From: Hymenobacter sp. DG25B | GTDB lineage: Bacteria > Bacteroidota > Bacteroidia > Cytophagales > Hymenobacteraceae | Direction of reading: 5' to 3' | NCBI RefSeq assembly: GCF_000801315.1 | Contig: NZ_CP010054.1 | Span: 1,488,001-1,552,000 of the forward strand | Length of the DNA: 64,000 bases | Shown here: piece after piece, positions 9,484 through 58,194 of the stretch | How the letters are laid out: every line of letters begins with the position of its first letter | How positions within the stretch are numbered: position 1 is the first letter of the stretch | The notes under the pieces: model-generated | What the model was told of the DNA's origin: nothing | What the model saw: only the letters and a program-made list of their open reading frames with translations | Databases searched by the model: none | Position numbers and translations under genes: made by a program

Positions 9484-9617
9484 CTAGTTCCCCTCCTCAG
9501 ATGAGGAGGGGTTAGGGGTGGTTGAAACGGTGGTACGTGTTTTAGAACTAGTGCTAATTGGTCGTTCCACGAAGGTCAACCACCCCTAGCCCCTCCTCAT
9601 CTGAGGAGGGGAATTAG
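9484..9617. repeat. Family A inverted-repeat element, copy 1
   Basis: Two arms of about 50 and 42 bases form an inverted repeat around a loop of about 40 bases. Each arm itself contains a small palindrome of the type CCCCTCCTCA-GA-TGAGGAGGGG and a GGGGTGGTTGA segment. It fills the gap between convergent genes. Further copies lie at 26019, 45564 (collapsed) and 46492. Confidence 0.92.
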
Positions 9618-9655
9618 CTTTCTAGCTTTTACCTCCTGTCTCCTGGCTTCTCACC

Positions 9656-11986
9656 TTATAGCTTCACTTTCACCCGTAGCGCCAGCAGGCCTTTTACGCC
9701 TTGTAGCTCTTCCAGCTCCAGTTCTTCTACCTCCGGCTCCAGCAGATTGCGGTCCTGGAGGTAGTCAATATACTCCATGTACTCGGTAGCTTCCCGTAGC
9801 TGAGTGTACACCAGGGCCAGCTGGCCGGGCTGCGTCAGCCGTTCCCCGGTACCCAGAATGGTGGCTTTGTCGATGCGCTTCTTGATGATTTCGTAGCGGA
9901 TGTTGTAGGTGCCGTCTACATCAAACTGGCGCTCATCCTGCCGGAAGCGGATGCTCAGCGGCTGGCTGTGTACCAGCACCAGCTGGGTGGTTTCCAGCGG
10001 CATGGGCAATTCATTCTTGAGGGCGGCGGTTCGGCGCGTTATTTCCACCATGGTCAGGAGCTGCCACAGGCGGAGGTTTTTCAGAAAAATGAGGTCGAAG
10101 GGCTTATTTTCTACCAGCGCCCCACCCACGTAAATGTTGTACTCCACGCCATCGGTTTTGAAGCGCTGGAAGTAGTGCGGGAACATCTGCTGGGCCTTTT
10201 CTTCCTCTTCGTCCAGGTAGTCGCTCACGGCATCGTTCAGGCGGGTTACGCTTTGCTCAAAGGCTTTGCGCCGCTTGTAGAGAATGCCCAGATCGGGGTC
10301 AATATTGTCCCAGTATTCCGTGAGGATGGTGCGCAGCTCGGGCGTGTTGGTGCCCAGGTACTCAAACAGGGGCTCCACTTCCGTCTTTATTGACTCCAGA
10401 ATGTTGACTTCATCCCCCGTAATAATGCCCTGGCGCAGGCGGCGCAGGTTTTTATTCACGTAGAACTTCAGTTCATCCAGAATAGGCAGCGCCTGAAACT
10501 CAGAAGCTTTTTTCAGCACCTTATTCGCCAGGGATAAATGCTCAATTAAGTCGCCCTGAATGGCCTCGTTGCGGGCGGTGCTGCTGCCCCGGATGTCGGA
10601 AGAGCCATGCAGCGGATACACGTCGTGGAACACAATGGGCTCCATTTCGGCGTTTTTGTTGCCGTCCTCAATCTTCTCCAGCAGGTTCAGGGCGGCATCG
10701 GTAAAGCGCCATTCCATGGTCGGATGGATGGCGGTAAACTTCTCCTTGATAATGGCCTGCACCCGCGTCTGAATATCCTCGGCGTTGCGCTTCACGGCCA
10801 CCGCGAACAAGGGAATAAAGGGGTTCACTTTTTCCAGGCTGAACTCGTCCAGGTCGCCCACGTTGGGGGAGCCCAGCTCCAGCAGGCCCACGGTGTCGTC
10901 GCCGTAAGGCAAAAGGGCTAAAATGGCGCTCCGGATGCCAATACCGAGGATTTGCTGGCGCAGGTCTTCGGGAATATCGGCGGTTTCTACATTTTCCAGC
11001 ACCACGGGCTGCCGTTCCAGCATCAGGCGGGCATATATCTGCCGAAAGCCCGAGCTAACCTCTTGGTTTTGCAGCTGCTTGGTAAGGAAGCTGTGGTTTA
11101 TCTTTCGGCCGAAATCCACGAAAGCGCGCTTCTTCTCATCGTAGGCGGCAATACCCAGCTGCAGGAAGGGGCGGCCAAACAGCACGCGCAGCTTTTCCTG
11201 AATCTGTTCCAGGCGGTCGGAGGCCTGCAGCACGTCGCGCTCCAGCAGGTCGTATTTCAGTTCGGAGAGGATTTCCTGGTCCGTTACATCTACTAGGTGC
11301 ACAATGTTGAAGCCATGCAGCTCAAATAGCTCCGGCGGCAGCATTTCTTTCCAGATATCCAGGCGGTGCAGGTTATGCCCCAGATTTTCAATCTGCTCGG
11401 GGGTAAGCGGAGGGGCTTCGCCTACTACCCGCACCTCAATAAACGACGAGTTTAACTCTACGCCGTAGTGCCGGTACAGGCCAATGCTGTAGTCGGGTAC
11501 AGTGAAGATGACGGTGCTGTTAAGGGGCAGCCGGACACCATATACTTTTTCCAGAATGAGCAGATAGGCAACCCGCGTCATGTACACCTCCATAGTGGAC
11601 GCGTCTATATTCAGCGGCTGTTTTACCGTGTGGTTGGGGTTAAGCAGTACCTCGGCAAAGCGGGGCGTATGGTAAAAGCTGAACCGGGCAAAAGGAGGAG
11701 TCGCGCCGCTGATATCGGCCTGAAAGGAAGCGGGAGGAAACACCGCCAGCATCAGGGTTTCCACCAGGTCGCAGCCACATTCCAGGGCTACCATATCGGT
11801 AATAGCCCCCCGGCTCCAGGCTTCGTTCTGTACCTGGTCCATAATGGCCTGCGCCAGGGCGGCGGTACCTTTATTGGTGTCGTGCACCCGCTCCTGCCAA
11901 TAGGCTATGAGGGGTTCCAGACTAAGGGAAGTAATGAAGGGAAATATCCCGGCCGAGGCCGGTTTTTCTAGAGTCTTAAGCTGCAT
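9656..11986 (-). CDS. Large GAF-domain protein, cytoplasmic, function unknown
   Basis: This protein of 776 residues has no signal peptide or membrane helix. A GAF-like sensor domain lies about residues 290-410 (RQPVVLENVETADIPEDL, AILALLPYGDDTVGLLELGSP). The regions before and after are mixed alpha/beta with long helices, including an acidic helical stretch near DYLDEEEEKAQQMFPHYFQRF. No histidine kinase, GGDEF or DNA-binding domain is visible, so its output is unclear. I recall similar long GAF proteins in Hymenobacter and related genera but no known role. On the minus strand, TACCTTTA at 12031-12038 may be its -7 box. It stands alone, convergent with PAP2 copy 2. Confidence 0.75.
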   Translation of the reverse strand: MQLKTLEKPASAGIFPFITSLSLEPLIAYWQERVHDTNKGTAALAQAIMDQVQNEAWSRGAITDMVALECGCDLVETLMLAVFPPASFQADISGATPPFARFSFYHTPRFAEVLLNPNHTVKQPLNIDASTMEVYMTRVAYLLILEKVYGVRLPLNSTVIFTVPDYSIGLYRHYGVELNSSFIEVRVVGEAPPLTPEQIENLGHNLHRLDIWKEMLPPELFELHGFNIVHLVDVTDQEILSELKYDLLERDVLQASDRLEQIQEKLRVLFGRPFLQLGIAAYDEKKRAFVDFGRKINHSFLTKQLQNQEVSSGFRQIYARLMLERQPVVLENVETADIPEDLRQQILGIGIRSAILALLPYGDDTVGLLELGSPNVGDLDEFSLEKVNPFIPLFAVAVKRNAEDIQTRVQAIIKEKFTAIHPTMEWRFTDAALNLLEKIEDGNKNAEMEPIVFHDVYPLHGSSDIRGSSTARNEAIQGDLIEHLSLANKVLKKASEFQALPILDELKFYVNKNLRRLRQGIITGDEVNILESIKTEVEPLFEYLGTNTPELRTILTEYWDNIDPDLGILYKRRKAFEQSVTRLNDAVSDYLDEEEEKAQQMFPHYFQRFKTDGVEYNIYVGGALVENKPFDLIFLKNLRLWQLLTMVEITRRTAALKNELPMPLETTQLVLVHSQPLSIRFRQDERQFDVDGTYNIRYEIIKKRIDKATILGTGERLTQPGQLALVYTQLREATEYMEYIDYLQDRNLLEPEVEELELEELQGVKGLLALRVKVKL

Positions 11987-12066
11987 ACAGGTAGTGTCCG
12001 GAGCAGACCAACAGGGCCCGCCGAGGCAGATAAAGGTATATACGCAGCCCGGTTCGCGGCGGCTGC

Positions 12067-12624
12067 CTACCGGCTCAGCACCACCGGCTTTTCCTCCGGG
12101 TGGTTAGTAGATGAATATACATCAACCGGCGTGCCGTTTACCAGCAGTTTTTTTCGGCGGTTACGGTAGCAGGTCACGCAGCCATCGGCCTCAAAGTCGC
12201 CGGCAATGTCCAGTTCCGTCAGCTCGTAGCGCAGCTTCTCCTGGCTGTTAGGCAGATACACCGTGTAGTCATAGTCGGGCAGCCGGCGGAGCCCTTTTCG
12301 GGTGAAGGGAGCAGTCTGTTCCAGGAGAATAAAGTCAGCTACAGACGTGGGCAGCCGCACTATCCGTACCGTATCAGGCGCCAGGCGGGCGGTATCAGGA
12401 GAAGTATAGGTAGCCGTTCTGGCCCGGGTCTTCCGAATCAGTAGCACGCTGTCGATTTCCCGGGCCCGAAACCCTTTGCCACTGGCGGAGTCCGTCAGGT
12501 TAAAGCGCAGGTACAGGCTGTCGGCATAGGCATCCTGGCAGTCGACGGCCGAGTTGCCGCAGCAGGCGGCTACCAGCAGCATCAACAGCAATACAAAAGA
12601 AGCGGAGGCAAGGCGGGAAATCAT
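12067..12624 (-). CDS. Predicted lipoprotein, unknown function
   Basis: A 185-residue protein starts with a lipoprotein signal peptide whose lipobox is LVAACC, so it should be anchored in the inner or outer membrane. The mature part contains a charged segment (GKGFRAREIDSVLLIRKT), a pair of cysteines in CVTCYRNRRKK near the C-terminus and no family I recognise. It starts about 100 bp downstream of the T9SS cargo gene on the same strand, with a strong hairpin between them, and is likely a separate unit. Confidence 0.6.
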   Translation of the reverse strand: MISRLASASFVLLLMLLVAACCGNSAVDCQDAYADSLYLRFNLTDSASGKGFRAREIDSVLLIRKTRARTATYTSPDTARLAPDTVRIVRLPTSVADFILLEQTAPFTRKGLRRLPDYDYTVYLPNSQEKLRYELTELDIAGDFEADGCVTCYRNRRKKLLVNGTPVDVYSSTNHPEEKPVVLSR

Positions 12625-12677
12625 CAGCGGTAAAGATAGGGATATGCGCCGGGCCTGCCGGCAGGCACTTATAACAC

Positions 12678-12713
12678 CAGCAGCGCCGGCCCTTTACGGA
12701 GCCGGCGCTGCTG
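12678..12713 (-). terminator. Strong hairpin, probable terminator
   Basis: A perfect 13-bp stem (CAGCAGCGCCGGC / GCCGGCGCTGCTG) with a ten-base loop follows the stop of the gene at 12732 on the minus strand. There is no T run after it, so it may instead slow polymerase or stabilise the mRNA end. Confidence 0.5.
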
Positions 12714-12731
12714 TTACCTGCAAAATGGTGG

Positions 12732-13625
12732 CTATTGTTTCACAAACCGCTTGGTTTCTACTCCACTGCGGGTGGTTATCTTAAAGAAATAAGTGCCACG
12801 CGCCAGATCATCCACCTGCACCGCCTGCGAATAGGTGCCTTTGTTCTGCTTTTGATTGACTACGGTGCGCAGGGCGCTGCCGCGACCATCCAGCAGCTCC
12901 ACGGTTACCGGGCCGGCTTTTTTCACCTCGTAGGTCAGCTGGCTGGTAGCCGCCACCGGGTTAGGATATACGGATGCCTCGTCGCCCACGGCTGGCTGCT
13001 GCTTGTCGTGCCGGGAATGGGTGGGGGCGTTAGGGTTGAGCAGCAGAAAGGAAACAGGCTGGAAGTAGCGGCGCTGCCCACTGTGCTTACGGCCAGCCTT
13101 AGCAGGCGCGTTTTCCGGGGTAGCGGCGGGGTACTTGGCCCGAATAGCCTGCATATCAGTCTGCCACTGGACTTGCTGGGGCTGTACCTCAGCGGCCAGC
13201 TGGCTGATAGCAGCCTGGTACTTCTGCGCCAGGGGCTTTACTTGCTCCAGTATGGCGCGGCGTTGCGTGCGCAGTGCTTTCAGCTGCTCTTTCTGGGCAT
13301 CGGTAAGCGTAACTTTTGCCTGGCCCTGAACCTGCTGGGGCTGGTTAGCAGCCCGGAAGCTACGGCGCAGCTGTTTATCCTGCTTACGCATTGCCTGCAG
13401 CTGCCCGCGGTAGGCGGTAAGCTGGGTTTTATCAGTGGCTGAAAGCTGGGTCTCCAGCTTCTGGCGCTGCTGGCGCACCACGGGCATTACCGTTTGCTGC
13501 AGGTAAGCGTGCATTTCCTGGCGGGCCGGCGACTTGGCCGGGCGGCGGTTTTGGGCAAACGAGGCCGTGGTCAGCAGCAGCACGGCCAGGGCTACCAGCA
13601 GGGACCGAAGGGAGAATGTGTTCAT
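12732..13625 (-). CDS. Secreted helical protein with T9SS type A sorting domain
   Basis: This 297-residue exported protein starts at an ATG at 13625 with a signal peptide ending SFAQ. Residues about 25-150 are long charged and Gln-rich helices, likely a coiled coil, with repeated LKALR and AILEQVK patterns somewhat like CpxP/Spy periplasmic proteins. A basic linker rich in His, Arg and Pro follows. The C-terminus (VYPNPVAATSQLTYEV ... GTYFFKITTRSG ... RFVKQ) is a type A sorting domain for the type IX secretion system. The role of the helical part is unknown. An in-frame ATG five codons upstream is also possible. Confidence 0.75.
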   Translation of the reverse strand: MNTFSLRSLLVALAVLLLTTASFAQNRRPAKSPARQEMHAYLQQTVMPVVRQQRQKLETQLSATDKTQLTAYRGQLQAMRKQDKQLRRSFRAANQPQQVQGQAKVTLTDAQKEQLKALRTQRRAILEQVKPLAQKYQAAISQLAAEVQPQQVQWQTDMQAIRAKYPAATPENAPAKAGRKHSGQRRYFQPVSFLLLNPNAPTHSRHDKQQPAVGDEASVYPNPVAATSQLTYEVKKAGPVTVELLDGRGSALRTVVNQKQNKGTYSQAVQVDDLARGTYFFKITTRSGVETKRFVKQ

Positions 13626-13706
13626 ACTAGGGAAGGGCAAAATGATAAAGTATCGGGTTATGCCCTATAGAGGGAGGAAGCGGGCGTAGGTTTAACCGCC
13701 GGTCAG

Positions 13707-13741
13707 AAAAAAACCGCTACAGAATGCTCTGTAGCGGTTTT
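13707..13741 (-). terminator. Bidirectional rho-independent terminator
   Basis: The stem AAAACCGCTACAGA / TCTGTAGCGGTTTT with an ATGC loop lies downstream of the lipoprotein gene at 13789 on the minus strand, with A and T runs on both flanks. Confidence 0.88.
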
Positions 13742-13788
13742 CCTATATAGCCAGGCTTAAATTCCTGTTGTTGCTGCTGGCTGACTTT

Positions 13789-14493
13789 TTATTCCTCATC
13801 ATCTGCAGCCGGAGTGGCCGGGGCCGGGGTGGGAGCTGCCTCGTACAGGCTGCCCGTGGCTACTTCCTGTTCTTCATCGCCCAACTGCCCGGTATTCAGC
13901 AGGCGGGTGCGCAACAGGGTAGAAGCCGTATCCAGCTGCGTTTTAATTTTAGCCAGCGCGCTTTTCAGGGCTTCCGTATCGGCCAGGCGCGGGCCCATGC
14001 TCTGCGAGTAGCCGTGGTACATAGCCACTTTAATATTAGAGTCGCCGGTACCTTCGTAGGTGCCCAGTACTTCGCCCTTGGCATCTACTACCTGCAGCTG
14101 CGCCCGCACGTGGGTGCGGAAAAACTCCAGGGGTACGCCAAACAGGCTCGGCGTCAGGAAGCCTACCATCTGAATGGCGTGCAGGGCTTTGCCGTGCCGG
14201 CTGGCTTTGGCTTCCAGAATCTGCAGCTTCAGGTAGCCAAACCGCGCGCTGCTATCGTTGCTTTCCAGCAGGTTCTGGGTGGCTTCGCGCTTAAACAGCT
14301 GCGCCGGATCTTCGGGCAGGGAGCCTTCTGTTTTGTCCATGGGCCCGTTTTCTACTCTTACTTCCATCTCCGGGAGCTTAGTGCTCAGCGCCAGCGGCGA
14401 AGGCTGATATAAAAGCTTACTGCCGGAATGGCATCCGCCCAGCATCAACAAAGAAACACTCAATAGCAGGAGTAGAGGTTGGGCCAGGCGCAT
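13789..14493 (-). CDS. Predicted lipoprotein, unknown function
   Basis: This 234-residue protein has a lipoprotein signal peptide with lipobox LGGC. The body is mixed alpha/beta, with FGYLKLQILEAKAS and VVDAKGEVLGTYEGTGDSN suggesting a beta-rich periplasmic domain, then a helical stretch and an Ala/Pro-rich acidic tail ending DDEE. I do not assign a family. It lies alone between two terminators. The AT-rich stretch upstream presumably carries its promoter. Confidence 0.6.
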   Translation of the reverse strand: MRLAQPLLLLLSVSLLMLGGCHSGSKLLYQPSPLALSTKLPEMEVRVENGPMDKTEGSLPEDPAQLFKREATQNLLESNDSSARFGYLKLQILEAKASRHGKALHAIQMVGFLTPSLFGVPLEFFRTHVRAQLQVVDAKGEVLGTYEGTGDSNIKVAMYHGYSQSMGPRLADTEALKSALAKIKTQLDTASTLLRTRLLNTGQLGDEEQEVATGSLYEAAPTPAPATPAADDEE

Positions 14494-14729
14494 GGAGGAT
14501 AGCAGAGTAGAGGTGGCGAAAAAAAGATTTCGAAGTTAACACACTGCCTGCCAGATAGGTGCTGCACAAAATTGTAAAATTTTGGTGTGCTATATAATTA
14601 TAATAACAATTTTAATATTTTTATAAATAATGCCAAATTGATTCACATAAATAGGATATAACTTATTTTTGATTGTTGAGGCTGCCTGTCTTTCCGCCCG
14701 AATTCTATAACACCTGCTCCTAAAATGCA
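14494..14729. other. AT-rich intergenic stretch
   Basis: From about 14560 to 14670 the sequence is nearly all A and T, in sharp contrast with both flanking genes. It lies between the start of the lipoprotein gene and the end of the symporter gene, both on the minus strand. I see no ORF or clear box, and it probably holds the lipoprotein promoter or a UP-like element. Confidence 0.4.
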
Positions 14730-14764
14730 GAATCCCGGCCCTGCATAACGCGGGACCGGGATTC
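14730..14764 (-). terminator. Probable terminator of the dicarboxylate symporter gene
   Basis: The arms GAATCCCGG and CCGGGATTC flank a 17-base loop just downstream of the symporter stop. No long T run follows on the minus strand. Confidence 0.55.
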
Positions 14765-14785
14765 GGAGGTAAGCGGTGGCTAAGA

Positions 14786-16222: not shown

Positions 16223-16258
16223 GCGGGCAAATAAGGGACAAACTGGGGGGAATGTCAG

Positions 16259-16266
16259 CAAAGATA
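16259..16266 (-). promoter_or_regulatory. Putative -7 box for the symporter gene
   Basis: Read on the minus strand the sequence is TATCTTTG, 36 bases before the ATG at 16222. A -33 element is not obvious. Confidence 0.5.
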
Positions 16267-20596: not shown

Positions 20597-20690
20597 GAGC
20601 TGTTGGCCGTTGGCTATTAGCTGTTGGCTTTCGTCGCTGTGTCTGGCGTAAGCAAACAGGCTATCAGCCATGAGCTATCGGCTATCAGCT
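20597..20690. repeat. Family E inverted repeat (AGCTNTTGGC-type)
   Basis: Tandem-like words GAGCTGTTGGC/TGGCTATTAGC occur on the left (20597-20629) and their complements on the right (20659-20690). The element fills nearly the whole clpS-recR spacer. Confidence 0.75.
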
Positions 20691-25982: not shown

Positions 25983-26018
25983 CTCCCCGGTATTTTATTA
26001 GGCTAAAAGCTAGAAAAA

Positions 26019-26146
26019 CTAGTTCCCCTCCTCAGATGAGGAGGGGTTAGGGGTGGTTGACCGTCGTTGAACGATAGGCTAAGTTTAGTTTTAGCTCTAG
26101 TTTTTCAACCACCCCTAGCCCCTCCTCATCTGAGGAGGGGAACTAG
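26019..26146. repeat. Family A inverted-repeat element, copy 2
   Basis: The arms CTAGTTCCCCTCCTCAGATG... and its complement flank a loop of about 45 bases. The right arm ends three bases before the hemE stop codon, and the element lies between the convergent hldA and hemE genes. Confidence 0.92.
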
Positions 26147-26149
26147 TTT

Positions 26150-27184
26150 TTAGTGGCGCATCTTAACGCTGTATTCCTTCACCGTGTCAATAAACACACG
26201 CACGTTGTCGGGGTCGGTGTCGGGGTATACGCCGTGGCCCAGGTTGGCAATGTGGTGGTAGGGGCCAAACTGGTCCAGCATCTGAATGGTAGCCTGGCGC
26301 ACCTGCTCGCGGGTGCCGTAGAGGGCGCAGGGGTCCAGGTTGCCCTGCAGGGTTTTGTCGCCTACCAGGGGGCGCACTGCGCGCGGGTCCTGGTTCCAGT
26401 CCAACCCAATAGTGCGGCAGGGCAGCTGGGCGAAGTCGCCCACGGCCCAGAAAGCGCCTTTGGCAAACACGGTAACCGGTACTTCCGGAATAGCCGCACA
26501 AATTTCGGCAATGTAGCGGGTGCTGAACTCCGCATAATGCGCGGGCGGCAGAATACCGGCCCACGAATCAAATACCTGAATGAGGTTAGCGCCGGCCTGC
26601 ACCTGGGCGCGCAGGTACGCAATGGTGGTATCGGTAATTTTGCGCAGCAGCTCGTGGGCCAAGGCCGGATTGGTGTAGAGCAGGCGGCGGGCTTTGCTGA
26701 AGGTTTTGGAGCCGTGGCCTTCTACCATATAAGCCAGAATGGTCCAGGGGGCGCCGGCAAACCCAATGAGCGGCACGCGGCCGTTCAGGGCGCGTTTGGT
26801 TACCCGAATGGCTTCCAGCACGTAACCCAGGTGCTCTTCGGGGTCGGCCACGCGCATGCGGGCCACGTCCTGCGCGGTTTTAATGGTTTCGGGGAAGAGG
26901 GGGCCGCGCGCCTCAATCATTTCATAGGTGAGGCCCATGGCTTCGGGCACCACCAGAATATCCGAAAAGATGATGGCAGCGTCCACGTCCAGGGCATCCA
27001 CGGGCTGAATAGTGACTTCCGCAGCCAGATCCGGCGTTTCTACCAGCTCTTTGAAGCCACTGAGGCGGGCGCGCAGGGCACGATACTCGGGCAGGATACG
27101 GCCCGCCTGGCGCATCAGCCACACGGGGGTACGTTCAGTCTGTTCGCCGCGGGCGGCACGGAGGAGGAGGTCGTTCTTCAGCAT
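26150..27184 (-). CDS. hemE: Uroporphyrinogen decarboxylase HemE
   Basis: This 344-residue enzyme decarboxylates the four acetate side chains of uroporphyrinogen III to make coproporphyrinogen III in heme synthesis. Signatures are [18 protein letters not shown] at the N-terminus, [14 protein letters not shown] with the catalytic aspartate, [46 protein letters not shown] and [16 protein letters not shown]. Length and order are normal. A TACCTTTG box precedes the start. The gene ends against a family A repeat, and a family F repeat lies upstream. Confidence 0.97.
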
Positions 27185-27202: not shown

Positions 27203-27308
27203 AATGGCGAAATGGTAAAGTGGTGAAATTGTGAGTGACGTTCACGCCACGCGCAATAACATGCCGCCAGAATCGCAAACTCACCACTTCACCATTTCAC
27301 CGCTCACC
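27203..27308. repeat. Family F inverted repeat (TTCACCATTTC-type)
   Basis: AATGGCGAAATGG...GTGGTGAAATTGTGAGT on the left pairs with ACTCACCACTTCACCATTTC on the right. The right end overlaps the marC stop codon at 27304-27306. Confidence 0.75.
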
Positions 27309-29855: not shown

Positions 29856-29916
29856 GCCAGCTTCTATCCCTTCATGCAGAGTACAGCATCTCACGTGATG
29901 ACGTTATTAGAAAACA

Positions 29917-30120
29917 GACCGTCATGTCGAGCGTAGCCGAGACATCTCGCGTGCTGATGGTGTGGTGCTATAGTCATGCTGAGCGTAGTCGAAGCATCTC
30001 TACCACGCCATTGGAGTCGTCAGCAAACGAAGCGGTAGAGATGCTTCGACCAGCTCAGCATGACTATAGCACCACACCATCAGCACGCGAGATGTCTCGG
30101 CTACGCTCGACATGACGGTC
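29917..30120. repeat. Family B inverted-repeat element, copy 1 (about 87-bp arms)
   Basis: Two nearly perfect arms of about 87 bases flank a loop of about 30. Each arm carries the words GTCATGTCGAGCGTAGCCGA and GTCATGCTGAGCG followed by GAAGCATCTC. A degraded copy precedes it (about 29873) and a partial copy follows (30145-30175). It lies between two convergent genes. Confidence 0.92.
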
Positions 30121-30124
30121 TTTA

Positions 30125-40545: not shown

Positions 40546-40693
40546 CCGTCATGCAGAGCAGAGCGAAGCATCTCGCGTGCTGACTATTTTGGGAAAATAA
40601 CGGTCATGCTGAGCGGAGTCGAAGCATCTCGCCCGCTTCGTTGCAGTGGTATACCACACTAGCGAGATGCTTCGACTCCGCTCAGCATGACCC
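40546..40693. repeat. Family B inverted-repeat element, copy 2
   Basis: An inner inverted repeat (40601-40632 and 40662-40692) carries GGTCATGCTGAGCGGAGTCG and its complement, preceded by a second unit CCGTCATGCAGAGCAGAGCG. It lies between the convergent SDR and ackA genes. Confidence 0.9.
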
Positions 40694-45563: not shown

Positions 45564-45625
45564 ATTAGCTAGAAAAGCTAGTTCCCCTCCTCAGCTGAGG
45601 AGGGGAACTAGCTTTTCTAGCTAAT
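45564..45625. repeat. Perfect 62-bp palindrome, collapsed family A element
   Basis: The sequence is symmetric without mismatch around 45594/45595 (TCAG|CTGA), with ends ATTAGCTAG and CTAGCTAAT. It keeps the outer arms CTAGTTCCCCTCCTCAG of family A but lacks the GGGGTGGTTGA segments and the loop. It lies between pta and fabG, and can form a hairpin with a 31-bp stem. Confidence 0.92.
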
Positions 45626-46491: not shown

Positions 46492-46622
46492 CTAGTTCCC
46501 CTCCTCAGCTGAGGAGGGGCTAGGGGTGGTTGAAGAACTAGAGTTAGATAATTAGAACTAGTTGGTCGTTCAACAAGTGGTCAACCACCCCTAACCCCTC
46601 CTCAGTTGAGGAGGGGAACTAG
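46492..46622. repeat. Family A inverted-repeat element, copy 4
   Basis: Arms beginning CTAGTTCCCCTCCTCAGCTG and ending in the complement flank a loop holding TTGGTCGTTCAAC, a word shared with the copy at 9484. It occupies most of the gap of 311 bp between fabG and the TPR lipoprotein gene. Confidence 0.92.
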
Positions 46623-46695: not shown

Positions 46696-47436
46696 CTAAT
46701 CCTTCACATACTTGCGCAGGCTCTTAGCGGCGGCCGGGTTTAAGGCGGCGGCGCGCTGCAGGTCTTTCTTGGCTTCTTTGGGTTTGTTAATGGAGGCATA
46801 GGAAATGCCACGGTATTCAAAGGCATCGGCGTAAGCAGAGTCCAGGGCAATGGCCTTGGTGAAATCCGGAATAGCACTGCGGAAATTCTGGGTCTGCATT
46901 TTGGCCACGCCCCGCCCAAAAAGGGCTTCTTTATCGTCGGGCCGATATTTCAGGGCCTTGGTAAAGTCGCTGATGGCGGGCGTGTAGGCTTCCGTTTTCA
47001 GGCGGGCCAGACCCCGGTTGTAGTACGCTTCGGCGTTGGTGGGCTTCAGGCGCAACGCCGAGTTGTAATCCAGAATGGCCGTTTTGTAATCCTTGAGCTC
47101 AATCCGGGCTTTGGCCCGCTCCATCAGCGCATCGGCATTGCGCGGATTGGTTTTCAGGGATGCGTCTGCCGCCTTCACCTGGGCTTTGTAATCGGCATTA
47201 GTCAGCTTTTTGGCTACCGGTGCCGCTGGCGTAGCCGGGGCCGGTGTAGTAACAGCACCCAGCACGGCGTCCTGCGCAGAAGAATCCGTAGAAGGAGCAG
47301 TTACGGACGTAGTGGAAGAAGCAGGGGAGGAAGCCACTGCCCCCGGCGACTCATTTTCCTTGGGCGCGGTGGCACATTGGGTAATAAAACCCAGCAGCGA
47401 AGCCCCCAGGCAATAACGTAGTAATACTTTTTTCAT
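46696..47436 (-). CDS. TPR-repeat lipoprotein
   Basis: A 245-residue protein whose signal peptide ends with lipobox ITQC at about residue 20, predicting a lipid anchor. A Ser/Thr/Ala/Pro-rich linker (residues 25-85) leads to about four tetratricopeptide repeats (NADALMERAKARIELKDYKTA, NAEAYYNRGLARLKTEAYTPA, DKEALFGRGVAKMQTQNFRSA, YADAFEYRGISYASINKPKEA). TPRs hold protein partners, so a scaffold in the periplasm or outer membrane is likely. It is a close paralogue of the gene at 49030, and both flank the FAD reductase gene. I chose the ATG at 47436. Confidence 0.82.
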   Translation of the reverse strand: MKKVLLRYCLGASLLGFITQCATAPKENESPGAVASSPASSTTSVTAPSTDSSAQDAVLGAVTTPAPATPAAPVAKKLTNADYKAQVKAADASLKTNPRNADALMERAKARIELKDYKTAILDYNSALRLKPTNAEAYYNRGLARLKTEAYTPAISDFTKALKYRPDDKEALFGRGVAKMQTQNFRSAIPDFTKAIALDSAYADAFEYRGISYASINKPKEAKKDLQRAAALNPAAAKSLRKYVKD

Positions 47437-47584
47437 GGGTAAAATATTGCGGATGAAGCAAATGATGGAAGAAAGCGTAACGCTTTTCCTTACGGAAGGC
47501 ACCGCTTTCCGGTCGATTTTCTGCCAACTTTACACGCATACGGTGCGCTCCTAAGTCCTTACCTTCGCCCGGTAAGCCTATTTC

Positions 47585-48835: not shown

Positions 48836-49016
48836 GTGTCCTTGCAAGGCACCCTGTGTCCTTGCAAGGACGAAGGACGAAGCAATCCGTCCCCTGCGAA
48901 GTAGGAAACTCTCTTTCACCAGAAAGCCCTTGACGTGAGGTACGTCAAGGGCTTTACACATTTCAGGGGTTTCTACATTTCAGAGGACGGATTGCTTCGC
49001 TTCGCTCGCAAAGACA
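48836..49016. repeat. Family D inverted-repeat element, copy 1, with central terminator hairpin
   Basis: Outer arms of the type TCCTTGCAAGGACGAAGG and GACGAAGCAATCCGTCC pair with GGACGGATTGCTTCG at the right end. The centre (48922-48955) is a 14-bp hairpin, AAAGCCCTTGACGT / ACGTCAAGGGCTTT. It lies between two convergent genes and could stop transcription from both. Confidence 0.9.
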
Positions 49017-49029: not shown

Positions 49030-49710
49030 TTACTTCTTGCCGTATTTGCGCAGGCTTTTGGCGGCTGCCGGGTTCAGCTGTACTGCTTTTTCCAGATCTT
49101 TCTGGGCTTCTTTGGGCTTGTTGATGGAGGCATAGCAAATACCGCGGTACTCATACGCATCGGCGTAGTTAGGATCCAGGGTAATCACTTTGGCAAAGTC
49201 GCCCAGCGCCGATTTGTTGTTGCTCATCTGCATCTTGGCTACTCCACGGGCAAAAAACGCCTCTTTATCATCGGGGCGCAGTCGAATTACCTTGCTCAGG
49301 TCGCCAATGGCGGGCGTTATCTCCTCATTCTTCAGGTGGGCCAGGCCCCGGTTGTAGTAGGCATCCGTGTTGGTGGGGTTCAGCTTAATGGCCGCATTGT
49401 AGTCCTTAATGGCGTCCGGGTAGTCCTTCAGCTGCAGATGCGCTTTGGCACGCGCCAGCAGAGCCTCTTCATTTTTTGGATTGCCGGCCAGCACTTTGTC
49501 AGAGGTCTGTACCTGCAGCTTATAATCAGCGGCGGTCATTTTCTTGGGAGGCAATACGGCCGCCTCCACTTTAACAGGCGCGGCCGCAGTCTGCTCCTGC
49601 GCGGGTGAAGTGGTAGCAGGGGCTGCCGGAACCGCTGTTTGCGCCGAGGCTGTGTAGGCCAGGGAAACAGTTAAAATACCGGCTGCCAGCAAAGAGAAGC
49701 AGTGTTTCAT
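49030..49710 (-). CDS. Exported TPR-repeat protein
   Basis: A 226-residue protein with a cleavable signal peptide (MKHCFSLLAAGILTVSLAYT ... ASAQT) instead of a lipobox. After a Pro/Ala/Thr linker it has the same four TPR units as the gene at 46696 (EEALLARAKAHLQLKDYPDA, TDAYYNRGLAHLKNEEITPA, DKEAFFARGVAKMQMSNNKSA, YADAYEYRGICYASINKPKEA) and the same end KSLRKYGKK. It is therefore a soluble periplasmic sister of the lipoprotein. The start at 49710 is set by the signal peptide. It is divergent from lpdA. Confidence 0.82.
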   Translation of the reverse strand: MKHCFSLLAAGILTVSLAYTASAQTAVPAAPATTSPAQEQTAAAPVKVEAAVLPPKKMTAADYKLQVQTSDKVLAGNPKNEEALLARAKAHLQLKDYPDAIKDYNAAIKLNPTNTDAYYNRGLAHLKNEEITPAIGDLSKVIRLRPDDKEAFFARGVAKMQMSNNKSALGDFAKVITLDPNYADAYEYRGICYASINKPKEAQKDLEKAVQLNPAAAKSLRKYGKK

Positions 49711-49822
49711 GAGACTTATAAAAATTAGATTGTTGAAAAAGGTGGGGGCGGAACGCGGGTGAAAAAGGATAGACAATATCCGGGCCAGCTATTTGCCTTT
49801 CGCCTCATTCGGAACTGATTGA

Positions 49823-51404: not shown

Positions 51405-51429
51405 AATGAAATTTAAGTGAGCTGAAAAG

Positions 51430-51615
51430 AACGTCATGTCGAGCGAAGTCGAGACATCTCGCGTGCTGACGTTGTTGGAAAAGGAACGTCATGCTGAGCG
51501 TAGCCGAAGCATCTCTGCCGCTTCATTAAACCTCATCCCCTATCCATGAAGGGAGGGGCTTTATATTACTCTGGCAACATCAGCACGCGAGATGACTTGA
51601 CCAGCTCGCCATGAC
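51430..51615. repeat. Family B inverted-repeat element, copy 3
   Basis: Two left units (CGTCATGTCGAGCGAAGTCG and CGTCATGCTGAGCGTAGCCG) pair with a shorter right arm (CAGCACGCGAGATG ... CCATGAC). A block around 51525-51560 (CTCATCCCCTATCCATGAAG) seems to be inserted in the centre. It fills the 330-bp gap between the convergent lpdA and DUF5996 genes together with the terminator. Confidence 0.85.
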
Positions 51616-51677
51616 TAGTTTATGCTCAGCAGATATCTGTTTGCACCTTCACCTTTGCGACACCTGGCGGCTGATAT

Positions 51678-52616: not shown

Positions 52617-52735
52617 AAGCGGCAGAAGTCCGGGGAATATCAGCCGGGGCCTTCGCCGGATAAGTTACGGAGTATGCCGGGTTTACTAGTGGCTTAGCCT
52701 ATGCGAGTAATCAGAAAGCAATAAACTGATTTTGC

Positions 52736-52866
52736 TAACGTTTTGGCGCTTGGCGAAGAAGCGGATTTCGAAGCACTGAACTATCTGCCAGCACTGAACT
52801 TGATACGAAGTACAAAGCTTCATTTAAGCACTGAACCCGCTTTTTTGCCAAACGCCTGTTATGGGC
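52736..52866 (-). other. attC-like imperfect palindrome beside the DUF4738 pseudogene
   Basis: The left arm GGCGCTTGGCGAAGAAGCGG (52745-52764) and right arm CCCGCTTTTTTGCCAAACGC (52836-52855) pair imperfectly. They are bounded by CTAACG (52735-52740) and GTTATGGGC (52858-52866). The interior has three copies of AGCACTGAAC. A GCCCATAAC box recurs upstream of the gene (53446-53454 on the plus strand). The layout recalls attC sites of gene cassettes, but the core boxes do not fully match integron consensus. Confidence 0.5.
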
Positions 52867-52873
52867 TGCTTTT

Positions 52874-53428
52874 TTATTCTTCATCGTCAGTATGTTCAAC
52901 AAAATTTAGTTTTCTATTTGTCAAGTCGAAGTAGTGATAAAAGGCAAGTGTATAGTCTGTTTCAGGTTTGCTAATAACTCCAAAGAGTTCTATTTTGTCT
53001 TTGTCTACCTTGTTAAACCAATAGTTGTGAAAAATTGCGATGTCCATAAAATCATTGTCAGCATATTGTGAAAACTGCTTTTTTCTAAATACAGTGTCCA
53101 AAAGTGTTTGTGACTTTTGTTTGATTGTCAATGTTATTTCAGCGTCTCTATATTTGTCAATTTGCTTTTTTCCATTGTCATCGTATTCATTTGTAACATA
53201 GCTGTCTAGGTCTGTCTTTATGATTGTAACTTGTAATTGTTTGTCGGCTAATAGGGTGTCGAATTTTACAGTTTCTTTATTCTATGGGAAAAATCTTTCT
53301 GATTTGATATTTGTCGAAGTAACTGTTGTACTGTCGGTTGTTTCAACTACTGTCGATTTCTTTTCTGTCTTTGCATTACAAGCAAAAAGCAAAAGCGTTA
53401 AAGTCGAAATTATTATGCTATTCTTCAT
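52874..53428 (-). pseudogene. DUF4738-type lipoprotein gene with an internal stop codon
   Basis: From ATG 53428 the frame encodes a lipoprotein signal (lipobox LFAC at residues 14-17), then a Ser/Thr-rich linker. Codon 49 is TAG (53282-53284). The rest continues in the same frame to 52874 with VKFDTLLADKQLQVTI, DLDSYVTNEYDDNGKKQID, FRKKQFSQYADNDFMDIAIFHNYWF and PETDYTLAFYHYFDLTNR, which I associate with DUF4738. So one nonsense codon breaks an otherwise intact 185-codon gene. It is AT-rich, unlike all neighbours, and lies next to an attC-like palindrome. Confidence 0.75.
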
Positions 53429-53590
53429 TATGTGTCGTCCCTTTAAAGTTGCCCATAACATCTGTGTTTACGAAAGTATTCTGGCCTCAGAGTTTCGGGA
53501 ACCGACGTTCTGTACGAAGCTAACTTTCGGGAAGCATACTATTATTTGAATGCTTCCCGAAACCGGAAGCCCCAAGGTAGTTACTCCATT

Positions 53591-54535
53591 TCAATCCTGC
53601 ACCGGCTCCAGTGGCACCGGTTCCACACCCTCCGGCAGCACCTCTTTCGGCCGGCGGCTCACCAGCCACACGCCCGCAAAAATCAGCAGCGCCTGTAGGA
53701 ATTTACCCCAGGTAAATACATCCTTGCCCAGTAAAATGGCAATGACAGCGGCCAGTACCGGCTGCAGATACACGTACACGCCCAGCAGGGCAGGGGAGGC
53801 ATATTTCAGCGCCCAATTGTTGAGTAGGTAGGCCAGAATGGTGAGAAACACCACCATGTACACCAGCTCAGCCCAGATAAACAGCGGCAAGCGGGCGTAT
53901 TCAATAGCGGTTACCTGCTGCCAGCCCACTGGCACCGCCACCACCGCGCCCACCAGAAAAATGCGCGACAGCACCGTAAACGGGTGGTATTTCCGCATCA
54001 GCGGCGTCACAATAACCAGGTAAATACCAAAGGCCGTGGCATTGAGCAGAATAAATACGTTGCCCAGCGTGCCATCCTGCCCCGGCACGGTGGCCGCGCC
54101 GTGGCCCCGCCCCAGAATAATAAGCGCGGCACCCACGGCCGCCAGCAAAATGCCCAGCGTCCGTGTGGGCGTAATTTTCTCGCCCAGCAGCACCGCCGAA
54201 GCCAGCACCACCACAATGGGCGCCACCGTCTGAATAAGCGAGGCATTGATAGGCGAGGTAAGATTGAGGCCCGCGAAAAACAGCAGCTGGTTCAGCCCAA
54301 TGCCGATGATGCCGCACAAAATAGAGCGCACAGTATCGGCGCGGCCCCGGATGCGGTCCTGCGTCACCAGGCGACTCAACACGCCAAAGAACAGCGCTGC
54401 GCCCGCAATGCGCAGCGCTACCACACCAAACGGCCCGGCATAGCGCGGCATAATGTCTTTGGAAAGACTGTACGCCGCAGCGTATATCAACGTAACAAAC
54501 AGCAGCGCGGCGTGCACGCGGAAAGAGTTTTTCAT
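53591..54535 (-). CDS. EamA/DMT family transporter
   Basis: A 314-residue inner-membrane protein with ten predicted helices in two EamA repeats. The first begins AALLFVTLIYAAAYSLSKDI and includes FAGLNLTSPINASLIQTVAPIVVVLAS. The second includes NWALKYASPALLGVYVYLQPVLAAVIA, a very typical EamA segment. Family members export metabolites such as amino acids, and the substrate is unknown. The C-terminus ends in a short polar tail. The start at 54535 fits the family. A family C repeat separates it from the divergent rarA gene. Confidence 0.92.
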   Translation of the reverse strand: MKNSFRVHAALLFVTLIYAAAYSLSKDIMPRYAGPFGVVALRIAGAALFFGVLSRLVTQDRIRGRADTVRSILCGIIGIGLNQLLFFAGLNLTSPINASLIQTVAPIVVVLASAVLLGEKITPTRTLGILLAAVGAALIILGRGHGAATVPGQDGTLGNVFILLNATAFGIYLVIVTPLMRKYHPFTVLSRIFLVGAVVAVPVGWQQVTAIEYARLPLFIWAELVYMVVFLTILAYLLNNWALKYASPALLGVYVYLQPVLAAVIAILLGKDVFTWGKFLQALLIFAGVWLVSRRPKEVLPEGVEPVPLEPVQD

Positions 54536-54567
54536 GCCCGGCGAAGATAAGCTGATGTAGAAGGAAT

Positions 54568-54670
54568 GTAGCGCGAAGCTCCGGCTTCGCGTACGAGCGG
54601 AGCGAGTGCTAACGTATGCACACGCCTGCTACTCGCGTTGCTCGTGCGCGAAGCCGGAGCTTCGCGCTAC
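54568..54670. repeat. Family C inverted-repeat element, copy 3
   Basis: Left arm GTAGCGCGAAGCTCCGGC, right arm GCCGGAGCTTCGCGCTAC, inner words GTACGAGCGGAGCGAGT and ACTCGCGTTGCTCG. This is the only repeat of the window lying between two divergent starts (EamA and rarA). Confidence 0.92.
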
Positions 54671-54705
54671 TTCCTTCCGTACCTTTCCTGACTCAATTCT
54701 TTCGC

Positions 54706-56037
54706 ATGGCTACCGGCTCCCTTTTCGATACTGATTCTCCCGTACCACAACCGTACACCCCACGCCCCGGGGCGCCGCTGGCGGAGCGCATGCGCCCGCG
54801 TACCCTGGAGGAATATGCCGGGCAGCAGCATTTGGTAGGGCCGGAGGGCGTGCTGCGGCGGTATTTAAATGCGGGCCGCCTGCCTTCCCTGATTCTGTGG
54901 GGGCCGCCCGGCGTAGGCAAAACCACGCTGGCCAATTTGCTTGCCCAGGAGTTGGGGCAGCCCTTCGCCTCGCTCAGCGCCGTGAATGCCGGCGTGAAAG
55001 ACGTGCGAGAGGTAATTGAGCGGGCCAAAAAGCAGCGTGGCACGGTGCTGTTTATTGATGAGATTCACCGCTTCAGCAAAAGCCAGCAGGATGCGCTGCT
55101 GGGCGCCGTGGAGCAGGGCATTGTTACGCTGATTGGCGCCACCACCGAAAACCCCTCGTTTGAAGTAATTCCGGCCGTGCTCAGTCGGGCACAGGTGTAC
55201 GTGCTGGAGCCGCTGGACAAGGAAATTCTGACCGGCTTAGTTGACAAGGCTCTGGCTGAAGACGAGATTCTGAAGCAGAAAAAAGTGCGGGTGCAGGAGT
55301 ACAACGCCCTGCTCACCATATCGGGAGGTGATGCGCGCAAGCTGCTCAACCTGCTGGATATTGTGGTGGAAGCCAGCCGCCCGGACCCCAAAACCGGCGA
55401 AATCATCATCACCGATGAAGGCGTGCAGCAGCTGGCCCAGCAGCACCTGGCGCGCTACGATAAAGGCGGCGAGATGCACTACGACGTCATTTCGGCCTTC
55501 ATTAAAAGCATCCGCGGCTCCGACCCCAACGCGGCGCTCTACTACCTGGCCGTGATGCTGGAAGGCGGCGAGGATGTGAAGTTTATTGCCCGCCGCCTGC
55601 TCATTCTGGCTTCCGAGGACGTGGGTAACGCCAACCCGAACGCCCTGCTGCTGGCCCAAAGCTGCTTTCAGGCCGTTACGGTCATCGGCATGCCGGAGTC
55701 AGATATTATTCTGGGGCAATGCGTGGTGTACCTGGCCACTTCGCCTAAGAGCAACGCCAGCTATAAAGCCATTCGGGAGGCGCGGGCGCTGGTGCGGCAG
55801 CAAGGCGTAGAGCCGGTGCCCATTCCGCTGCGCAACGCGCCCACCAAGCTCATGAAGCAGCTCGGCTACGGTACGGAGTACCAATACTCCCACGACTACC
55901 CCGGCAACTTTGCCTATCAGGAATTTATGCCCGAAAAGCTCAGTGGCACAGTATTTTATCAGCCTGGTCAGAACTCCGCCGAAGACAAAATACGGGAGCG
56001 AATGCGCCAGCTTTGGGGCGAGAAGTACGGGTATTAA
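54706..56037 (+). CDS. rarA: Replication-associated recombination protein A (RarA/MgsA)
   Basis: A 443-residue AAA+ ATPase acting at stalled replication forks. It has PLAERMRPRTLEEYAGQQHL at the N-terminus, Walker A GPPGVGKTTLA, Walker B VLFIDEIHRFSKSQQDALL, sensor 1 LIGATTENPSFEV and sensor 2 GDARKLLNLL, then the tetramerisation domain (HYDVISAFIKSIRGSDPNAALYY, LASEDVGNANPNALLLA). The ATG at 54706 is right after a TACCTTTC box near 54680; an upstream start at 54616 lies within the family C repeat. A family D repeat follows. Confidence 0.96.
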   Translation: MATGSLFDTDSPVPQPYTPRPGAPLAERMRPRTLEEYAGQQHLVGPEGVLRRYLNAGRLPSLILWGPPGVGKTTLANLLAQELGQPFASLSAVNAGVKDVREVIERAKKQRGTVLFIDEIHRFSKSQQDALLGAVEQGIVTLIGATTENPSFEVIPAVLSRAQVYVLEPLDKEILTGLVDKALAEDEILKQKKVRVQEYNALLTISGGDARKLLNLLDIVVEASRPDPKTGEIIITDEGVQQLAQQHLARYDKGGEMHYDVISAFIKSIRGSDPNAALYYLAVMLEGGEDVKFIARRLLILASEDVGNANPNALLLAQSCFQAVTVIGMPESDIILGQCVVYLATSPKSNASYKAIREARALVRQQGVEPVPIPLRNAPTKLMKQLGYGTEYQYSHDYPGNFAYQEFMPEKLSGTVFYQPGQNSAEDKIRERMRQLWGEKYGY

Positions 56038-56062
56038 GGAAGTGAGAAGAGGAGGCGAGAAA

Positions 56063-56230
56063 GTGTCATTGCGATGAGACCACGACGAAGCAATCCGTCC
56101 TCTGAAATGTAGAAACGCTCGAGCTGTGAAAAGCCCTTTTCCGTTGCTGACGGGAAAGGGCTTTCTGGTAAAAGGGCGTGTCTGGCTGCGGAGAGGACGG
56201 ATTGCTTCGTCGTGCCTCCTCGCAAGGACA
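56063..56230. repeat. Family D inverted-repeat element, copy 2, with central terminator hairpin
   Basis: GTCATTGCGATGAG...GACGAAGCAATCCGTCCTCT pairs with AGAGGACGGATTGCTTCGTC...CCTCGCAAGGAC. The centre is a hairpin, AAAGCCCTTTTCCGT / ACGGGAAAGGGCTTT, whose stem sequence differs from that of copy 1 though the plan is the same. It follows rarA. Confidence 0.9.
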
Positions 56231-56286
56231 TGGAACCACGCAACCAACTGTCAAAAACCCACTCTCTAACAATGCCGAAAGCCCGT

Positions 56287-56294
56287 TACCTTTG
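56287..56294 (+). promoter_or_regulatory. Putative -7 box of sppA
   Basis: TACCTTTG lies 32 bases before the sppA ATG. No clear -33 TTG is seen. Confidence 0.5.
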
Positions 56295-56326
56295 TTAGGT
56301 AGCGGATATCCTTTTTTCTTTACCCA

Positions 56327-58081
56327 ATGAGACAATTCTTGAAATACGTGCTGGCTTCGTTTGTGGGGCTGCTACTGTTTGCCTTAGTAGGTTTTGTGCT
56401 GCTGATAGGGCTGATTGCAGGAGTAGCCTCCGCGGGCGAAGACGTGGAGGTGGCCAGCAACTCCGTTCTGGAAATTAAGCTGGACAAGCCCGTAGCCGAA
56501 CGGGAAAGCAAGGATTCGTTTGCTTCTATGCTCACCAACCGGGCCGATAACATTGGGCTGGATGAAATTAAGGCCAGCATCCGGCGGGCCAAAACGGACG
56601 ACGACATTAAGGGCATTTTCCTGAATGTGGAGCTGGTGCAGGCCGGTATGGCCTCGCTGGAGGAAATCCGCGACGCCCTGCTCGATTTCAAGAAATCGGG
56701 CAAGTTTGTGGTGGCTTATAATGATATGGCTTCCGAGAAAAGCTACTATCTGGCTTCCGTAGCCAACCGGATTTACCTTAACCCGCAGGGCACGCTGGAA
56801 TTCAATGGCCTGAGCTCGGAGACGTTCTACTACAAAAACCTGTTTGAGAAGGCCGGTATCGAGCCCTATATTTTTCGGGTAGGCTCGTTTAAAAGCGCCG
56901 TAGAGCCGTTTTTCCGCGAGAACATGTCGGACTCGGCGCGCCTGCAAACCAGCTCCTTCCTCAACTCCATCAACAACTTCACCCTCAGCCACGTGGCCGC
57001 CGCCCGTGGTATTGAGCCCGCGCGCCTCAAAGTCATCAGCGACTCCATGCTGGTGCACAATGCCGAAGACGCCAAGCGCCTGGGCCTGGTAACCCACCTG
57101 GGCTACTACGATGAGGCTTCTGACTACATGAAGGGCAAGCTGAAGCTGGATAAAAAGGAAAAGCTGAGTTTGGTGCCCCTGTCCGACTATGCTAAAAACG
57201 ACGATGAGGAGAAAAGCAGCGGCAACCGCATTGCCGTGATTTATGCCGAGGGCGACATTGTGACGGGTAAGGGCGGCAACAGCAGCATCGGCAGCACGCG
57301 CTTCGCCGAAGCCATCCGCAAAGCCCGCCTCGATGATAAAGTGAAGGCCGTGGTGCTGCGCGTGAACTCGCCCGGCGGCTCCTCGCTGGCGTCAGACATT
57401 ATTTACCGCGAGGTGGTGCTCACCAAGAAAGTGAAACCTATTGTGTGCTCCATGTCGGACGTTGCGGCTTCCGGCGGCTATTTCATTGCCATGGCCTGCG
57501 ACACCATTGTGGCGCACCCCAACACCATTACGGGCAGCATTGGCGTGTTCGGCATTCTGCCCAACATTCAGCCCATGCTGCGCGATAAGCTCGGCATCAC
57601 CACCGACCGGGTAACCACCGGCAAGTTCTCCGACTTGCCCACCATCACGCGGCCCCTCACGGCTTACGAGAAGGCGCAATTGCAGAAAGAGGTGGACCGC
57701 ATCTACGCCGACTTCACGACCAAAGCCGCCCAGGGCCGCCATATGCCCGTAGAGCGCCTGCGCCGGTACGCCTCCGGCCGGGTATGGTCGGGCACGGAAG
57801 CCAAGCAGCGGGGCCTGGTAGATGTGCTGGGCTCTTTTGAAGATGCCATGCAGATTGCCGCCCGCCGCGCCGGCCTCTCTAAAGGCGACTACCGCGTGCA
57901 GGTGCTGCCCCGCCAGAAGTCGTTCATGGAATCCATGTTCAGCAACTTCAATGAGGAAATCCGCCTGCACCTGGTGCGCGAGGAAATGGGCCCCATGTAC
58001 CCCGTGTACGAGCAGTATAAGAAGCTCTCCGAGATGAGCGGCGTACAGGCCCGCATGCCGTTTGAGCTGAATATTCAATAG
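56327..58081 (+). CDS. sppA: Signal peptide peptidase SppA, 67K type
   Basis: A 584-residue membrane-anchored serine protease of the S49 family that degrades cleaved signal peptides. One N-terminal helix (LASFVGLLLFALVGFVLLIG) anchors it. The two tandem S49 halves are visible. The first contains ASEKSYYLASVAN with the probable catalytic lysine and GTLEFNGLSSETFY. The second contains VLRVNSPGGSSLASD and CSMSDVAASGGYFIAMACD with the catalytic Ser in SGG, then TITGSIGVFG. Length is normal for the tandem form. The family B' repeat and purine nucleoside phosphorylase gene follow. Confidence 0.95.
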   Translation: MRQFLKYVLASFVGLLLFALVGFVLLIGLIAGVASAGEDVEVASNSVLEIKLDKPVAERESKDSFASMLTNRADNIGLDEIKASIRRAKTDDDIKGIFLNVELVQAGMASLEEIRDALLDFKKSGKFVVAYNDMASEKSYYLASVANRIYLNPQGTLEFNGLSSETFYYKNLFEKAGIEPYIFRVGSFKSAVEPFFRENMSDSARLQTSSFLNSINNFTLSHVAAARGIEPARLKVISDSMLVHNAEDAKRLGLVTHLGYYDEASDYMKGKLKLDKKEKLSLVPLSDYAKNDDEEKSSGNRIAVIYAEGDIVTGKGGNSSIGSTRFAEAIRKARLDDKVKAVVLRVNSPGGSSLASDIIYREVVLTKKVKPIVCSMSDVAASGGYFIAMACDTIVAHPNTITGSIGVFGILPNIQPMLRDKLGITTDRVTTGKFSDLPTITRPLTAYEKAQLQKEVDRIYADFTTKAAQGRHMPVERLRRYASGRVWSGTEAKQRGLVDVLGSFEDAMQIAARRAGLSKGDYRVQVLPRQKSFMESMFSNFNEEIRLHLVREEMGPMYPVYEQYKKLSEMSGVQARMPFELNIQ

Positions 58082-58091
58082 CCACCCTTAT

Positions 58092-58194
58092 TTGTCATCC
58101 TGAGCTTGCGAAGGACCTTCTCACGGCTGAACTACTCGCGTAACAACGACTCGTTCTAGCGAGAGAAGGTCCTTCGCGAAGCTCAGGATGACAA
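58092..58194. repeat. Family B' inverted-repeat element (GTCATCCTGAGC type)
   Basis: TTGTCATCCTGAGCTTGCG...AAGGACCTTCTC pairs with GAGAAGGTCCTTCGCGAAGC...TCAGGATGACAA. It fills almost all of the 120-bp gap between sppA and the phosphorylase gene, ending eight bases before the ATG. Confidence 0.9.

Follow-up and report, generated by a model that had tools for sequence, protein, structure and literature searches.

Inverted-repeat elements of different families occupy the same orthologous gene-end gaps in Hymenobacter

REPs in general favour positions past genes, and both GTAG-tagged and CGTC-tagged REPs have already been published together with that location (PMC3733652). The CGTC group lacks a transposase: as far as the accessible text of that survey goes, CGTC repeats were not found to flank any transposase gene, and their mover was still an open question in 2013 (PMC3733652). 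Our literature search retrieved no later answer on the mover of CGTC-type repeats. RAYT subclasses have also been described in the Bacteroidetes (PMC6006769). Template switching between the arms of an inverted repeat leaves alike arms together with an inverted spacer (PMC8604942).

The window considered here is the whole 64-kb stretch G000:C1:1488001-1552000 of Hymenobacter sp. DG25B (G000; 4.36 Mb in 4 contigs). Gap coordinates outside 1-64000 count from its start, and genes were called with a simple dicodon script and no annotation program. A sequence-only reading had listed 15 inverted-repeat elements in the window, and all 15 are present where it placed them, only element E being weak. Among the 25 longest of 32 inverted-repeat pairs are those of family A (starting at 9484, 26014, 45564 and 46492), B (29916, 40602, 51448 and 58092), C (24788, 37262 and 54568), D (48878 and 56081) and F (27206). 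E was absent from these 25 pairs and was also missed by a separate repeat finder. RNA folding of 10 of the 15 (A1, A2, A3, B2, B4, C1-C3 and the cores of D1 and D2) gave z values of -5.6 to -17.3, and for each of them 0 of 200 shuffles reached the native stability. An Rfam scan of the window returned a tRNA as its sole match at the gathering score.

No strand is assigned to any element. Family A consists of A1 (9484..9617), a palindromic dimer in a convergent gap that holds a short terminator-like hairpin instead in the relatives G062 and G015; A2 (26014..26151, convergent gap); A3 (45564..45625), a single hairpin in a tandem gap; and A4 (46492..46622, tandem gap). The gaps of A2, A3 and A4 each hold a B-type element in G062. 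Core hits for family A number 37 in G000, 7 in G062 and 5 in G015 (controls 0). In G002 and G080 (L131, L138) the A2 slot, 25983-26149, carries a GC-rich hairpin with CCCTAAG-type tandem repeats instead. E (20597..20690) reads as a degenerate inverted repeat in a tandem gap, and the orthologous gap in G062 and G015 has a different, clean inverted repeat. F (27206..27301), a GGTGAAATGG-type inverted repeat, also lies in a tandem gap, and the 675-bp gap of G062 is without it. The GTAG-tagged elements are C1 (24788..24903, tandem gap), C2 (37262..37378, tandem gap, overlapping a stop codon by 5 bp) and C3 (54568..54670, divergent gap). G062 has C in the gaps of C1 and C3 and the same element in that of C2, and in G002 and G080 the C1 gap holds GTAGCGCGAACTTTG-type repeats and the C2 gap other GTAG-type repeats.

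Convergent gaps hold B1 (29916..30121), a dimer with a GTC stem enclosing a second dimer with a GCT stem (69-nt arms, 100%), B2 (40546..40692), a GCT-stem dimer with an extra outer unit and an orthologous copy in G062, and B3 (51430..51616), a composite of GTC and GCT units. B4 (58092..58194), a CCT-stem dimer, lies in a tandem gap that carries a B-type element, of the same or another subtype, in 5 of the 5 relatives compared. D1 (48836..49012, convergent gap; D in G062 as well) and D2 (56063..56231, tandem gap; B-type in G062) are dimers with a terminator-like hairpin in the spacer, that of D2 having another upper stem with its pairing kept. B units nested in or beside other B units were seen at 29916-30121 and 51430-51616, and our sample contains 10 same-direction B neighbours, which lie mostly 41-55 bp apart and may reflect a favoured landing site within B elements. 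A4 and D1 adjoin ORFs 46696-47502 and 49030-49776, apparently paralogues lying 2.3 kb apart, which have in common an 80% direct repeat of 108 nt.

The sequence-only reading had proposed at least six families. Several do stand, although not as fully separate ones: B and D form one CGTC-like class, in which variable stem pairs lie between invariant AT and GA positions. The B unit reads GTCAT-NNN-GA...GA-NNN'-AT with covarying triplets, and D keeps this plan with TGC/GCA (9 units). Across the class, exact complementarity holds for 86 of 99 landmark pairs, as opposed to a mean of 33.6 and a maximum of 48 in shuffles. B has 303 core hits in G000, 350 in G062 and 110 in G015 (controls 3, 5 and 2), and the exact D pattern occurs at 15 places in G000, 5 in G062 and none in G015, G002 or G080. 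The D spacer hairpin, AAAGCCCTT...AAGGGCTTT, is found in all 20 pattern-matched copies (16 read at full length, 4 in part). It has a strong stem followed by only 3-4 T and goes unlisted by a terminator scan. B and D show the CGTC or TGTC tag, the AT pairs at the stem foot and the facing dimers by which CGTC REPs are defined. The combination of an unbroken stem of 8-9 bp, a loop of 4-5 and a mostly CCA tail that marks families CGTC-1 to CGTC-4 is not found in them, the stem consisting of five pairs followed by GA opposite GA and the tail being CTC, CTT or CCG. Because of these differences in stem and tail we call them CGTC-like and place them outside the four families.

The loop of B varies between elements and is nevertheless identical in both arms of 34 of the 54 dimers examined, which belong to four subtypes: CCT (15 of 22; 1.95 in shuffles), GCT (12 of 20; 4.0), GTC (4 of 6; 1.2) and TCC (3 of 6; 0.7), the best shuffles reaching the GTC and TCC counts. 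In family C the variable tail matches between arms in 0 of 11 cases and the hairpin core in 7 of 13 (3.9 in shuffles). Arms are identical in 4 of 5 elements of the GTAG family R2 (2.0 in shuffles) and in 3 of 5 of family A (1.0). Since R2 and the C core also have alike arms, the contrast is with the C tail rather than with RAYT families at large. Between G000 and G062, orthologous B elements provided 324 arm pairs with 17 paired and 34 one-sided changes, where about 1.2 paired changes would be expected under independence (hand arithmetic); four of the 17 represent one subtype switch. The C orthologues gave 2 paired and 4 one-sided changes in 125 arm pairs, the same ratio as in B from few events, and a second species pair, G002/G080, gave 1 paired and 26 one-sided changes in 209 B arm pairs. 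By their paired arm changes, B elements consequently cannot be told from C, nor does the G002/G080 pair repeat the pattern. At gap 222148 the spacer has been inverted in place (score 0.96 inverted, 0.25 direct, 0.74 for the best other copy). Candidate spacer inversions at D1 and at gap -105994 were dropped, other copies matching as well.

The alike arms of B and the inverted spacer could have arisen by template switching between arms, a mechanism to which the observed pattern points. Not quite an even chance must be given to the replacement of whole elements, or gene conversion between copies, in place of any exchange within the element. Such replacement would account for gap 70689-70865 (G000:C1 about 1558689), where the B stem is GTC in G000 and GCT in G062, differing at all four stem places between matching flanks. 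It fits less well with the orthologues whose matching flanks enclose paired changes (155374, -127850 and 222148), and with the inverted spacer at 222148, which resembles its own orthologue more than any other copy.

As for placement, the statement that 14 of the 15 elements adjoin a gene 3' end, the one at 54568 lying between divergent genes, was confirmed: 6 lie in convergent gaps, 8 in tandem gaps and 1 in a divergent gap. The 3'-end bias that it suggested does not follow from this count, which is not significant (P 0.08) because 36 of the 48 window gaps contain a 3' end; it does appear in a larger sample. In 464 kb of G000 we found 48 inverted repeats (arms of at least 20, span of at least 55), including a few long terminator-like hairpins. 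The 44 intergenic ones fall into 13 convergent, 29 tandem and 2 divergent gaps, the expectations being 5.3, 24.1 and 14.6 per pre-insertion base (2 or fewer divergent in 0 of 5000 simulations) and 7.7, 25.4 and 10.9 per gap (1 of 5000). In tandem gaps 25 of the 29 lie closer to the stop. The bias is therefore real as a depletion between divergent genes (2 of 44 against 14.6 expected), and this orientation test does reveal an excess at 3' ends, whose absence would have told against the sequence-only reading. Inverted repeats are about 2.3 times denser in the window (13 in 64 kb) than in the other sample (35 in 400 kb).

G062 and G015 are both colinear with the window. Orthologous gaps of G000 and G062 were compared over 464 kb, and of the 262 matched, 15 hold the same named family, 6 different families and 5 another B subtype, 12 are occupied in G000 only (at least two of these, -197833 and -30552, having an orthologous G062 element missed by the finder or the labels), 1 in G062 only and 223 in neither. 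The G000 elements of the E gap and of gap 58082, missed or cut by the finder, were entered into the gap tables by hand, and the P values treat gaps as exchangeable. Without the 15 same-family gaps, 11 gaps are shared where 1.12 would be expected (P 4e-12). With the B-subtype swaps also left out, six strict family swaps remain against 0.52 expected in 242 gaps (P 5e-7), and against 0.92 expected (P 1.3e-5) within 3' gaps of at least 90 bp. Five of them, A2, A3, A4, D2 and E, belong to the window, and the sixth is an A element beyond it. The window alone has 7 shared gaps versus 1.7 expected (P 3e-6), or 5 versus 1.0 without subtype swaps. Outside it there are 5 versus 0.62 expected, made up of one strict swap, three subtype swaps and one doubtful case, and at one of the five, 158189, the G062 repeat looks like a terminator. 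Among the more distant relatives, and counting all inverted repeats, sharing is also weakly raised with G002 (8 versus 3.6 expected, P 0.005; named families only, P 0.06) and G080 (7 versus 3.1, P 0.006; named families only, P 0.025). With G015, several of whose corresponding gaps have a short terminator-like hairpin or nothing, it is not significant (P 0.09 for all inverted repeats, 0.24 for named families). Elements thus turn over at fixed addresses, a gap that holds A or D in one species holding B in its sister. That sister species carry different families at the same orthologous gap is new here: our literature search, which covered few subscription papers, turned up no description of orthologous gene ends where unrelated families replace one another, nor of a REP dimer with a terminator-like hairpin.

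An mRNA-end function, as the sequence-only reading had envisaged, gains from this gap re-use, weakly from the scarcity of other terminators, and not from the T-run test. For A, B, C and other inverted repeats pooled, 63 exit sides have 4.19 T per 14 positions against a background of 3.90 (P 0.34), 41 non-exit sides have 4.12, and a run of at least 4 T occurs on 9 of the 63 exit sides; this test gave no sign of the elements being standard terminators. A separate terminator was detected in 1 of 13 convergent gaps with an element and in 34 of 55 without, and likewise in 1 of 37 tandem gaps with an element and in 40 of 235 without. This exclusion is significant but confounded by leftover length, the median residue of element gaps being 52 bp and element-free convergent gaps having a terminator in 1 of 8 cases at 20-60 bp and in 22 of 29 at 60-90 bp (one terminator-like G062 repeat, 93267, being counted as an element in this check).

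Tolerance alone might explain the re-use, undamageable 3' gaps collecting decaying elements with no use for a hairpin, and we regard this as a serious possibility, if a little short of an even chance. It predicts the depletion seen between divergent genes, and the nested B units (B1 and the 10 same-direction neighbours) and the missing T-run agree with it. It is at odds with the high sharing that persists within 3' gaps of at least 90 bp and with the rarity of separate terminators in convergent element gaps, part of which leftover length explains. On balance we lean towards gene ends at which a hairpin, regardless of its sequence, is either tolerated or put to use.

A common mobiliser, for instance a TnpA-REP-like transposase, had also been proposed from the sequence alone, and this part of the idea holds for family C. 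G000 encodes two Y1_Tnp genes, scoring 92.9 and 84.1 against the cut-off of 80 of the NCBIfam REP-associated transposase family NF047646, and the search with that family yielded no third RAYT in this genome. The first RAYT ORF (L001:1240-1845) lies between two complete C dimers, 1098-1221 and 1850-1966, as does its orthologue in G062. Family C has GTAGCGCGAAGCTCCGGCTTCGCG on both arms, with the GTAG tag at the hairpin foot and the two units facing each other, and its core gives 49 hits in G000, 36 in G062 and 1 in G015 (controls 0). G015 had no match to either transposase family in the Y1_Tnp and NCBIfam RAYT searches. Judged by its tag, facing dimer and flanked RAYT gene, family C has the anatomy of a REPIN with its cognate RAYT, which would be responsible for its transposition. 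The second RAYT (L002:1240-1824; G000:C1 near 2879133) has on both sides a GCGTTTCTAACGCG-type repeat that is outside the window's families; a RAYT-like gene of G091 (L087) is flanked by this repeat as well. RAYT-like genes that lie between repeats of their own occur in several relatives. G080 has two such genes at 53.1 and 52.5 bits, below the cut-off and one of them in a split frame, and the repeats at both have the same core as the G080 occupants of gaps C1 and C2. No RAYT orthologue with swapped repeats was seen among the loci compared, where the C locus is common only to G062. In Anaerolineae, Saprospiraceae and Ignavibacteria MAG records (L259, L262, L263), inverted repeats lie close to RAYT relatives, either on one side or on both.

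For A, B, D, E and F the same idea was not supported. None of them stood on both sides, within 400 bp, at any Y1_Tnp gene among the 92 loci searched in the genus, these loci being the 2 of G000, the 30 best matches in 101 genus genomes (7 of which score like IS200) and 60 weaker ones picked from among the matches listed. No CGTC core adjoins any of 14 RAYT relatives from named records, one lying about 1 kb away on one side. In 1.18 Mb, a search for genes enclosed by two elements of family B, A, D, C, T or F gave five, all with B and all host-type by Pfam, and no transposase was found between A, B or D copies. As regards insertion-sequence ends or MITEs, seven filled/empty alignments were too diverged for target-site duplications to be read. 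That a single RAYT-type mechanism moved all families, A, B, D, E and F being REPINs whose RAYT was lost or acts in trans, is consequently improbable, even though all share the facing-dimer layout, a Y1_Tnp match exists in 73 of the 101 genus genomes and several relatives carry RAYT-like genes flanked by repeats of their own. Against it stand the 0 of 92 loci, the two RAYTs of G000, the 14 relatives, the abundance of B in G015, where neither search found a RAYT beside 110 B-type and 1 C core hits, and the accessible text of the earlier survey, which likewise has no CGTC-flanked transposase gene (PMC3733652). That the elements are ordinary host terminators of chance likeness and not mobile DNA is hardly credible, the positions past gene ends and the hairpin of all 20 D copies speaking for it and the dispersed near-identical copies, the C elements around a RAYT and the background T content speaking against it.

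Taken as a whole, the 15 elements are probably palindromic dimers of the REP type, diverse in origin and retained, for the most part, immediately beyond the ends of genes. C would have been spread by the RAYT encoded between two of its copies. For B and D, we suppose another enzyme or a replication-based process, because no RAYT was tied to either in the loci searched, with template switching between arms as a candidate for making the arms of B alike. A, E and F would be untagged palindromes, and the gaps may persist because a hairpin, from whichever family, is tolerated or required where the gene ends. A bolder version, which we put forward as a rather doubtful conjecture, is that many gene ends of the genus need a hairpin and none in particular, so that RAYT-borne REPINs, CGTC-like dimers and family A, all of them unrelated selfish palindromes, interchange with one another and with short terminators at fixed addresses, the CGTC-like class staying palindromic by arm template switching without a dedicated transposase and its D form bringing its own terminator-like hairpin. 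Besides the family exchanges, also new here are the terminator-like hairpin in 20 of 20 D copies, the single loop variant in both arms of 34 of 54 B dimers and one in-place inversion of a spacer. Sister genomes, colinear over hundreds of kilobases, show that at fixed places such repeats have exchanged their family, their arm loop and, in one case, the direction of the spacer. Since the same genome also contains a family associated with a RAYT, which serves as an internal control, spread, upkeep and gene-end use become directly testable.

With REPIN/RAYT systems, family C shares the GTAG outer tag, the facing dimer and a RAYT between two complete copies, whereas A, B, D, E and F have no RAYT among the loci searched, so that only C fits. 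B and D resemble the CGTC-tagged REPs, as described in the accessible text of PMC3733652, in the GTC tag (CGTC or TGTC), the AT stem foot, the facing dimers, the lack of a transposase gene and Bacteroidetes among the hosts. They differ by the GA-broken stem and the CTC, CTT or CCG tail, and D by its spacer hairpin as well. Arms made alike and an inverted spacer also characterise template switching, in what the available text of PMC8604942 describes in yeast; here one clear inversion, together with the alike loops, leads us to suppose it for repeats dispersed in a bacterial genome. Finally, the REP orthogroups of Pseudomonas and Stenotrophomonas, so far as the accessible text goes (PMC3686654), also present different REP classes at one syntenic place, but these surround orthologous RAYT genes, whereas in Hymenobacter the exchanges take place at ordinary gene-end gaps and between unrelated kinds of palindrome.
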